Below are positions 17,084 through 20,309 of a DNA stretch of 38,451 bases, one piece after another. Location: assembly GCA_018650085.1 (NCBI GenBank), contig JABIGQ010000019.1, positions 1 through 38,451 of the forward strand. Reading direction: 5' to 3'. A program made the position numbers and the translations under genes. A model generated the notes under the pieces. It did not search any database. It was given only the letters and a program-made list of their open reading frames with translations, and was not told the origin of the DNA. The DNA comes from Candidatus Magasanikiibacteriota bacterium. Lineage in GTDB: Bacteria; Patescibacteriota; Patescibacteriia; Magasanikbacterales; UBA922. How positions within the stretch are numbered: position 1 is the stretch's first letter; each line of letters starts with the position of its first letter.

Positions 17084-19996
17084 CTACACCTTCTCAACTT
17101 TCAAATTCACAACTGCATCACCAATCGTTACTTCTTCCCCACCCTCACCTACTTCCACACTACTGGCAAGTACTGCTTTTTTCAATTCACTTTCAAAATC
17201 TACAAAAACACTTTTCAACAACTCATCATCTGTCTGATATAAAACAGAAACACTATATTCCCTCGTCATCTTTGCTTCTTTCCGCTTTTGATTTATTGCA
17301 CGAACTACTTCACGAAAGAGTCCTTCTTTTTTCAACTCTTCTGTTATTTCTATATTAAGTGCCACTTTCAATTCTTTATCTTCTTTTTTTATCCAATCAG
17401 TAGATGCATCAAAAGTCACAAGCTCTTTTACATTCATTTCTTCTGCAATAATTTGTTTATATCCATCTTCAAGTTCTTTATTCATTGAAAAAGCGAGTAG
17501 TGGTTGTCGTACACGAATGCCTGACTCTTTTCGCAAAGATAAACCAAGCTCTACAAGTTTACGAACAACTTCCATACTTGCAAGTGTTTCTTCACTTTTC
17601 AATTCAGCTTTCACTTCTGGCCACATTTCCAAATGCACAGACTTTTTAGCATTACCTGTCACTCCGCCAAATACATGTTCAGAAATAAATGGTGTAAACG
17701 GTGCCATTACTTTACTCAATGTTAAAAGCACTTCTTTTAATGTTGCCAAAGCAACCATTTTTTCTTCCTCATTTCCAGATTTAAATCTATCACGACTTCT
17801 GCGCACATACCACTGAGATAATTCTGTGACAAAATCAAGTATTGGTCTAGAAGCTTCCGCCAACTTATACTCTTTCATATTCACAGTAACTTCTTCCACC
17901 AAATTATGAAGTTTCGCTAAAATCCACCTATCCAATACATGTTCTGATTTAACTTCTTCAATAGGTGCATCCCCCTCAAACATTTTATAAAAACTCAAAA
18001 CATTTGCAAGTGTATTTATAAGTTTATTATATACTTCTCGAACTCCAGATTCAGAAAAATTCATTTTCTCAGCATGCATCACCGGAGAGTTAAGAAGATA
18101 AAACCGAAGAGCATCAGCCCCAAATTTTTCAAGAACAACATTTGGATCTGGATAATTTTGTAATTTTTTAGCCATCTTTTTCCCATCTTCTGCCAGAACA
18201 ATTCCATTAACTATTACATTTTTAAAAGCTGCATGAGATTTTTCTACTGGAATAGATGGATTATCTCCTTCGGTTAAAGCAGTTGCTAAAACATGCAAAG
18301 TATAAAACCACCCACGAGTTTGATCTTGCCCCTCAGCAATAAACTCTGCCGGAAAACTCGATTCAAATTTTTCTTTATTTTCAAATGGATAATGCATTTG
18401 AGCATATGGCATAGCCCCTGACTCAAACCAACAGTCAAATACTTCTGGCACACGTGTATATGTTTTCCCATCTTTTTCAAAAGTAATTTCATCTACAATA
18501 TGCTTGTGAAGATCTGTAACTTTCCTGCCACTCAATTCTTCTAATTCTTTTACAGATCCCATACAAATAATATCTCCATCTTCACTTTTCCAAATTGGAA
18601 GAGTTGCCCCCCAATAACGATTTCTAGATACTGCCCAATCACGAACACCATCCAGCCATAACCCAAAACGTCCGTCTTTTATATGATCAGGAACCCAATT
18701 AATGTCTTTATTATTTTCTAATAATTTTTCACGCAACTGTGTCACTTTCACAAACCAACTACTCGTTGCATAATTTAAAAGTGGAGTATCACAACGCCAA
18801 CAATGCGGATAACTATGTTCATATTTTTTCTTTGAAAATAATCCATCATGATGCGCCAACCATTTTATCATCTCAATGTCTGTCGCCATGTGATCATCTT
18901 TTTGTTTTACATCTAATCCTACAAAATCTATTACTTCTTCAGTAAATTTTCCATCAATAGTCACATGTTGAACAAAATCTACTTTATGATCAAATCCAAT
19001 TTTATAATCATCCTCACCAAAAGCAGGTGCAATATGAACTATCCCCGTTCCATCAGTAGTCGTCACAAAATCAGCAGAAACAACTTTAAAAGCATTTTTT
19101 GTTTCTGAAAAATACGGGAATACAGGTTCGTAACTAAGCCCAACTAAATCTTTTCCAGTAGAATTACCCACAACTTCAAATTCTTTTCCTTCAAAATTAT
19201 GTAAAAGTAAATCCTTTGCTACTACATAAGCATTCCCCTCAAATTTCACAATACTATATTCTACATCTCCACCTACGGCAAGCAAAACATTCCCCGGCAA
19301 AGTCCATGGAGTGGTTGTCCAAGCAAGAATATATAAATCTTCATCATCTTTTACACCAAATTTTTCTTTTCCGTCTTTTACTTTAAATTTCGCTGTTGCA
19401 GAAATATCCTTTATATCCTTATATCCTTGTGTTACCTCAAAATTAGAAAGTGGAGTCGCACACCTAGGACAAACATGCATTGCTTTTTTCCCCTCATAAA
19501 TATATCCTTTTTTAAATAACTCAGAAAAAACCCACCAAAGACTCTCCATATAAGAAAGATCCATAGTTTTATAATCATTATCCATATCAACCCATCTTCC
19601 GTATCTGTGAATAGTTTTTTTCCATTCTTCTGCATATTTCAATACCGTTGATCTACAACTTTCGTTAAATTTATCAACTCCAAAATCTTCTATTTCCTTT
19701 TTTCCAGGTAATTTCAATTCCTTTTCAACAATATTTTCAATTGGAAGCCCATGACAGTCCCATCCCCATTTTCTCTCTACTCTATATCCATTCATTGTAA
19801 AAAAACGTGGAACCACATCTTTCATAGCTGATCCAACTAAATGCCCATAATGTGGCAGTCCTGTAGCAAAGGGAGGGCCATCATAAAAAACATACGGTTT
19901 ATCCTCCGGACGTTCATTTACTGATTTTTCAAATGTTTTATCTTTTTTCCAAAAATCTAGTATCTTTTTTTCTTGCTCACTTGCATTATATGGCAT
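17084..19996 (-). CDS. ileS: Isoleucyl-tRNA synthetase
   Basis: YDGPPFATGLPHYGHLVGSAMKD, KMAKKLQNYPDPNVV (KMSKS variant), WGWDCHGLPIE. Confidence 0.96.
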   Translation of the reverse strand: MPYNASEQEKKILDFWKKDKTFEKSVNERPEDKPYVFYDGPPFATGLPHYGHLVGSAMKDVVPRFFTMNGYRVERKWGWDCHGLPIENIVEKELKLPGKKEIEDFGVDKFNESCRSTVLKYAEEWKKTIHRYGRWVDMDNDYKTMDLSYMESLWWVFSELFKKGYIYEGKKAMHVCPRCATPLSNFEVTQGYKDIKDISATAKFKVKDGKEKFGVKDDEDLYILAWTTTPWTLPGNVLLAVGGDVEYSIVKFEGNAYVVAKDLLLHNFEGKEFEVVGNSTGKDLVGLSYEPVFPYFSETKNAFKVVSADFVTTTDGTGIVHIAPAFGEDDYKIGFDHKVDFVQHVTIDGKFTEEVIDFVGLDVKQKDDHMATDIEMIKWLAHHDGLFSKKKYEHSYPHCWRCDTPLLNYATSSWFVKVTQLREKLLENNKDINWVPDHIKDGRFGLWLDGVRDWAVSRNRYWGATLPIWKSEDGDIICMGSVKELEELSGRKVTDLHKHIVDEITFEKDGKTYTRVPEVFDCWFESGAMPYAQMHYPFENKEKFESSFPAEFIAEGQDQTRGWFYTLHVLATALTEGDNPSIPVEKSHAAFKNVIVNGIVLAEDGKKMAKKLQNYPDPNVVLEKFGADALRFYLLNSPVMHAEKMNFSESGVREVYNKLINTLANVLSFYKMFEGDAPIEEVKSEHVLDRWILAKLHNLVEEVTVNMKEYKLAEASRPILDFVTELSQWYVRRSRDRFKSGNEEEKMVALATLKEVLLTLSKVMAPFTPFISEHVFGGVTGNAKKSVHLEMWPEVKAELKSEETLASMEVVRKLVELGLSLRKESGIRVRQPLLAFSMNKELEDGYKQIIAEEMNVKELVTFDASTDWIKKEDKELKVALNIEITEELKKEGLFREVVRAINQKRKEAKMTREYSVSVLYQTDDELLKSVFVDFESELKKAVLASSVEVGEGGEEVTIGDAVVNLKVEKV

Positions 19997-20102
19997 ATAT
20001 TTTAAAATTATAAATGGTAAATGATGAATTATAAATTCACAAAACAAATTTCTTGTAGAAACGCAGCACTGCTGCGTCTTCTTCTTTTGGTGATATAAAC
20101 AA

Positions 20103-20276
20103 TAAAAAAAACACCTCTATGACACAGGGGCCTTACTCTATTAAGACGGTACCACCCTGTTTTGGTGCTTCATTTCCTGCTATTACGGGCTTACCCGGAA
20201 GATTCTACTCATTGCCATGCAAATTTCTTTCTCCAGCTTGTGGTTGATCGCCACTCAAACGCTTTTGTGATTGTAT
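20103..20276 (-). promoter_or_regulatory. T-box riboswitch (Ile-type) with terminator in the ileS leader
   Basis: Minus strand AACAGGGTGGTACC T-box sequence at 20149-20162; GTGG-CGATCAA-CCAC hairpin with AUC; T8 run after CCCTGT...GGTG. Confidence 0.85.
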
Positions 20277-20282
20277 ATGTAT

Positions 20283-20309
20283 ATTATACTAAAGATCGTG
20301 AAAAGTCAA
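20283..20309 (-). promoter_or_regulatory. Promoter of the ileS T-box transcript
   Basis: TTGACT/TTTGAC, 15-16 nt spacer, TATAAT on minus strand. Confidence 0.6.

Follow-up and report, generated by a model that had tools for sequence, protein, structure and literature searches.

T-box riboswitches of class III have a short Stem I with the specifier in its apical loop and are mostly translational, with the Nocardia ileS leader as an example (PMC10482949), and the ileS leaders of Actinobacteria act by sequestering the ribosome-binding site (PMC1262725). T-boxes acting on transcription generally require a long Stem I that binds the tRNA elbow (PMC7583486), and reviews link short forms chiefly to ileS switches of the translational type (PMC7583486; PMC10482949). 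A survey published in 2008 covered 242 genomes, with no phylum of the candidate phyla radiation (CPR) in its table (PMC2494555), and the translational-type model of TBDB was run on Actinobacteria and on truncated class I hits (PMC7778990). Here, we analyze the leader of ileS in contig JABIGQ010000019.1 of a Candidatus Magasanikiibacteriota bacterium (38,451 nt; this whole stretch is referred to as the window), together with its relatives in Patescibacteria. Judging from its sequence, the leader is likely to be a T-box riboswitch that senses tRNA-Ile through a class III-like aptamer and acts by transcription attenuation. In the open-access literature, we came across no description of T-boxes from Patescibacteria or the CPR, which is weak evidence for novelty, and TBDB might already include some of these leaders.

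The leader, of about 170 nt, occupies positions 20272-20104 of the minus strand, to which all coordinates below refer, between a promoter-like site and ileS, and all the sequence elements named in the first-pass annotation of the window were found on this strand. Its 5' part is a short Stem I of 29 nt (20235-20263), consisting of the C-stem AGC/GCU (20263-20261/20237-20235), a K-turn-like bulge, GUUUGA/AA, and the specifier hairpin GUGG-CGAUCAA-CCAC (20254-20240). The 7-nt loop of this hairpin presents the Ile codon AUC (20246-20248), complementary to a GAU anticodon, just as the annotation had described for a minimal Stem I. Next comes Stem II (20198-20234), with the base GGAGA/UCUUC (20234-20230/20202-20198), the purine-rich strands AAAGAAA and GAGUAGAA (S-turn-like) and the upper stem UUGC/GCAA, followed by Stem IIA, CGGG/CCCG (20186-20197), and GAAGCACCAAA. 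The strand GAAGCACC (20164-20171) falls where the RRRxG purine motif and Stem III would be located. The 3' part reads ACAGGG-UGGUACC-GUCUU...AAGGC-CCCUGU, GUCAUAGA, GGUG and U8. It includes the antiterminator (20124-20160), in which helices A1 (ACAGGG/CCCUGU, 20160-20155/20129-20124) and A2 (GUCUU/AAGGC, 20147-20143/20134-20130) flank the 7-nt T-box bulge UGGUACC (20154-20148). The strand GGUGUUUU (20108-20115) pairs with 20171-20164, enclosing A1 and A2, and the U8 tract of an intrinsic terminator lies at 20104-20111.

Upstream, a predicted promoter-like site (TTGACT ... TAATAT/TATAAT, 20281-20309) matches the consensus at 9 of 12 positions, a consensus match being its only basis, and sites like TTGACA/TATAAT also precede the leaders of relatives. 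The predicted transcript start is about 12 nt before Stem I, which leaves no upstream room for a longer Stem I and agrees with the earlier remark that a classical distal Stem I would not fit. Downstream, ileS (17084-19996; TIGR00392, 903.9 bits, cut-off 621.4) encodes isoleucyl-tRNA synthetase, with the start codon placed at 19996-19994 by the conserved MPYNANE N-terminus of relatives, 107 nt from the U tract. The source genome encodes tRNA-Ile(GAU) (G000:C24) with discriminator A73 and without an encoded CCA, so that the mature ACCA end fits UGGU; anticodon and A73 are what the AUC specifier and the UGGU bulge require.

We searched 46 genomes of the family for IleS and read the upstream sequence; in 28 of them, a leader of this type precedes ileS, always with AUC in a specifier apical loop of 5-7 nt. 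The named members of this group are Patescibacteria and Candidatus Magasanikbacteria, as expected from the earlier impression of a CPR genome. In an alignment of 23 leader cores, from which Stem I inserts had been cut out by hand beforehand, compensatory change occurred at 19 of the 23 modelled pairs, and 94.4% of the modelled pair cells paired, compared with 76.5% in shuffles. The covariation score of 0.655 (0.295 in shuffles) was reached by none of 500 shuffles and dropped to 0.11-0.20 once the pairing partners were slid. Both sides changed at all four pairs of the specifier hairpin, all five of the Stem II base, five of the six in A1 and four of the five in A2, the T-box bulge being located between the latter two helices. 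Stem IIA is nearly invariant and hence shows little covariation; C-stem variants among the relatives are AGC/GCU, UGC/GCA, GAC/GUC and AGCGU/ACGCU. The K-turn-like bulge, which reads UUUGA/GA in several relatives, was assigned by resemblance, as was the S-turn in Stem II, where relatives conserve an AGUAGA strand. This comparison of sequences settles the identity of the element, which is an ileS T-box leader. The covariation in related ileS leaders that the first-pass annotation had asked for was thus present and strong and, together with the agreement between codon and gene described below and the tRNA-Ile(GAU) with A73, upholds the proposed Ile T-box.

The window has the compact form of Stem I. 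In 19 of the 28 family leaders, 13-53 nt, mostly a second hairpin, separate the specifier hairpin from the 3' strand of the C-stem, and Stem I becomes a three-way junction where such a hairpin is inserted. Several of the inserts in the family ileS leaders L024, L040, L045, L054, L059 and L060 share a similar palindrome (GTCCTCCTNNGCTAAAGCTACGGAGGAC), reminiscent of a dispersed repeat lodged at a site where the riboswitch tolerates insertions.

With class III (as defined in PMC10482949), represented by the ileS leaders of Nocardia farcinica and Mycobacterium tuberculosis, the window leader shares a short Stem I without the distal interdigitated double T-loop motif (IDTM), an apical-loop specifier, a K-turn-like base, Stem II, a putative IIA/B region, a UGGN discriminator and ileS downstream. 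In contrast to class III, it ends in an intrinsic terminator (U8, 107 nt before the start codon) instead of sequestering the ribosome-binding site, its loop has 7 nt (5-7 nt in relatives) rather than 5-6 nt, many of its patescibacterial relatives have a second Stem I hairpin and serve Val, Asp or Asn besides Ile, and the hosts are Patescibacteria, not Actinobacteria. Because it has a terminator in place of the translational platform, we call the element class III-like and do not file it in class III. Stem II, the UGGN bulge, the antiterminator and the transcription terminator are shared with class I (the Bacillus subtilis tyrS type, RF00230); however, the window leader has neither a long Stem I nor an IDTM, its specifier is not in an internal loop, and its terminator partner lies upstream of A1, whereas in class I this partner is the antiterminator 3' strand. 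Class IV (Actinomyces odontolyticus ileS) resembles it in having a Stem I without an IDTM but not in the apical-loop specifier, although the relatives whose Stem I carries a second hairpin look superficially more alike. Judged by its predicted structure, the window element is a T-box that joins a class III-like aptamer to a terminator platform.

In the textbook T-box, the terminator takes the 3' strand of the antiterminator. The terminator hairpin and U8 that the first-pass annotation had described are present in the window, and the hairpin contains ACAGGG/CCCUGU; this pairing is, however, primarily that of antiterminator helix A1, and the terminator has a helix of its own, GAAGCACC/GGUGUUUU, which encloses it. 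Other contiguous helices abutting the U tract in the family include AAGCGCC/GGCGUUU, GAAGCAC/GUGCUUU, AAGGCCAC/GUGGUUUU, ACCACUUUG/CGGAGUGGU and, paired by hand in G008, UCACAG/CUGUGA. The terminator strands pair with an energy of -6.99 kcal/mol when matched, compared with -5.28 kcal/mol when swapped between leaders (p about 0.001, an approximate value given that the tests ignore kinship among leaders) and -2.64 kcal/mol when shuffled. Partition functions placed the terminator partner upstream of A1 in 26 of the 28 family leaders, with A1 mostly kept. A classical terminator formed from the A1 3' strand was sought in every family leader; it was much weaker in most and, by ensemble folding, dominant in G025 only. 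When the window transcript was folded at successive 3' ends (a purely thermodynamic calculation that takes no account of tRNA, tertiary contacts or pausing), A1 and A2 formed first, and the probability of the outer terminator helix rose from 0.14 at 3' end 20112 to 0.91 at 20110, as the U tract emerged; in the window folding, this helix adds 6.6 kcal/mol to A1 and A2. In accord with the earlier prediction, the U tract, its distance of 107 nt from the start codon and the folding of the terminator just as this tract emerges point to transcription attenuation. In 95 leaders outside the family, the terminator partner was upstream in 33, local in 18, in the bulge or A2 in 17, the A1 3' strand in 14, the A1 5' strand in 8 and mostly unpaired in 5. 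All these leaders thus share the aptamer; the nested terminator, as predicted by folding, predominates in the family of the window and is one of several platforms elsewhere.

Under the mechanism that we propose, the GAU anticodon of uncharged tRNA-Ile would bind AUC, braced by Stem II, and the ACCA end would bind UGGU. In the tRNA-bound state, the strand GAAGCACCAA would be held in the discriminator, by the purine string or by Stem III where present, and kept out of the terminator, so that RNA polymerase would read into ileS. Charged tRNA would not be captured, and the leader would terminate by default. The tRNA-bound discriminator and the terminator thus probably compete for GAAGCACCAA, the Stem III/purine strand. 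In solved T-boxes, the segment that matches the terminator partner here contains the RRRxG purine motif and the Stem III 5' strand (motif: PMC7583486).

Several observations weigh against this reading. The terminator uses no A1 strand, and we infer its exclusivity with the tRNA-bound state from the published role of Stem III and the purine string; moreover, no Stem III hairpin is evident in the window leader, and tRNA binding and readthrough are predicted from sequence. Other terminators are found in the same-genus relative G025 (A1 3' strand) and in the family member G011 (local hairpin). In single-sequence folding, the three-pair C-stem and Stem II have low probabilities (0.07 and 0.29, respectively). 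Finally, the RF00230 match, which had been suggested as a check and in itself favors a T-box, spans 20276-20123 end to end, with E = 1.1e-4 in a local scan and 5.6e-5 in the whole 1.0 Mb genome, but scores 28.9 bits, below the curated cut-off of 93 bits. It is the single T-box match of this kind in the source genome; a second weak match (L017, 14.7 bits) was dropped, as it had no T-box features by eye. The Rfam scan at the gathering threshold returned tRNAs only, and none of the 46 family genomes passes the RF00230 cut-off, so that automatic annotation would miss these leaders. The folding energy of the leader is unremarkable (z-score 0.34), and folding statistics alone would not reveal the structure.

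The nested geometry, present in 26 of the 28 family leaders, would also suit a switch of reversed logic, in which tRNA at the UGGU bulge stabilizes the terminator hairpin that holds the intact antiterminator and so promotes termination; the rise in A1 probability from 0.36 to 0.83 when the terminator helix forms is consistent with such a design. However, the T-boxes in the papers cited here are all switched on by uncharged tRNA, a synthetase gene turned off by its own uncharged tRNA would make little physiological sense, and leaders in the phylum with the same aptamer have ordinary exclusive terminators, in which the partner is an A1 strand or A2, implying the usual logic. We therefore consider a reversed switch improbable and retain attenuation relieved by uncharged tRNA-Ile.

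Of 147 leaders, 122 (83%, a value slightly flattered by 28 family leaders chosen partly for their U tract) have a U tract no more than 70 nt from the T-box, compared with 12% of shuffles of these stretches and 8% of random windows, which indicates that most of these T-boxes act on transcription. No U tract was detected in 7 of 130 related leaders. Two ileS T-boxes without a U tract, L232 (G463) and L075, have the gene start within about 30 nt of the T-box and are possibly translational or leaderless. Such leaders, in which the gene comes right after the T-box, and the resemblance of the aptamer to class III, described as mostly translational (PMC10482949; PMC1262725), would fit a translational T-box like the actinobacterial ileS leaders, in which uncharged tRNA would expose the ribosome-binding site and the U tract would be a chance feature. 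Yet, in the window, 107 nt separate the U tract from the start codon and we noticed no pairing between the T-box and the start region, U tracts are far more frequent among relatives than in controls, and the terminator strand pairs better within its own leader than with others. A translational switch in the window is accordingly quite unlikely, slightly more so than the reversed one, and transcription attenuation remains the favored reading.

To follow the aptamer beyond the family, we built a covariance model of the leader core without the terminator, trained on AUC leaders only, and ran it on Patescibacteria genomes. At E <= 0.01, 83 of the 383 genomes of the class had a match; in a phylum-wide sample of 382 genomes, 145 had one at E <= 0.001. 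For 120 of the leaders, the downstream gene was sought independently of the leader, by comparison with IleS, ValS and AspS, and a synthetase gene was identified for 111, while the codon was read in an apical loop of the first hairpin, close to the 3' end of that loop. Across class and phylum, ileS leaders carried AUC in 47 of 58 cases, valS leaders GUC in 27 of 32, and aspS leaders GAC (9) or AAC (8) in 17 of 18; by eye, the mismatches mostly reflect the script having picked another hairpin. Because the model was trained on AUC leaders only, the change of codon with the gene cannot stem from it. AAC before aspS fits an aspartyl-tRNA synthetase that also charges tRNA-Asn, and aspS leaders often have the bulge UGGCACC, as G73 would need. 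Single leaders from the Rfam search present ACC before thrS (L007) and GGC before glyS (L004) in similar short apical loops.

A decayed T-box, in which the distal Stem I was lost and the remainder attenuates constitutively, having ceased to sense tRNA, would account for the low Rfam score and the long Stem I or Stem II inserts of many relatives, but is very improbable given that the specifier loop, UGGUACC and the covarying helices are maintained across 28 genomes and that codon and gene change together throughout the phylum, a pattern that requires selection for recognition of the tRNA. It appears reasonably likely that Patescibacteria have their own lineage of T-boxes, in which a short Stem I presents an apical-loop codon retuned to Ile, Val, Asp and Asn (Thr and Gly from single examples) and transcription is terminated without contact to the tRNA elbow, the terminator in the family of the window enclosing the intact antiterminator and competing only for the Stem III/purine strand. 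The first-pass annotation is thus supported in proposing an ileS T-box in the CPR, but it underestimated the scope, which is phylum-wide and includes several amino acids, and left antiterminator and terminator undivided. Short, terminator-coupled T-boxes for several amino acids throughout a phylum would either contradict the long-Stem-I rule or show a way around it (PMC7583486, PMC10482949), and offer many natural variants for asking what tRNA binding speed is needed and which strand is competed for. They would also represent amino-acid sensing in genome-reduced bacteria, for which few modes of regulation are known.

Additional observations concern individual leaders. In valS leaders, the specifier apical loop reaches up to 11 nt; many have 9-11 nt (AUUAAUGUCA), compared with 6-7 nt (e.g. 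L174, L176, L183, L238 and L246), and GUC stays beside the 3' side of the stem. The T-boxes before glyS (L004) and thrS (L007, L013 and L016), genes assigned by eye, occur in the same bacterial family; they have UGGAACC bulges, and their terminators mostly use the A1 3' strand. In the window, a perfect 7-bp inverted repeat, ACGCAGC/GCTGCGT (20061-20077), lies downstream of the T-box terminator, ahead of the ileS start, and is not followed by a U tract on the ileS strand. In the same genus, a long class I-like T-box (L002:1501-1771, in G025; 76 bits) precedes a 201-aa open reading frame. Finally, two Val-type T-boxes with GUU or GUC in the loop, L223 (the second hit in G121) and L227 (G242), precede a gene whose product, judged by eye, is an HD-domain-like protein and not a synthetase.
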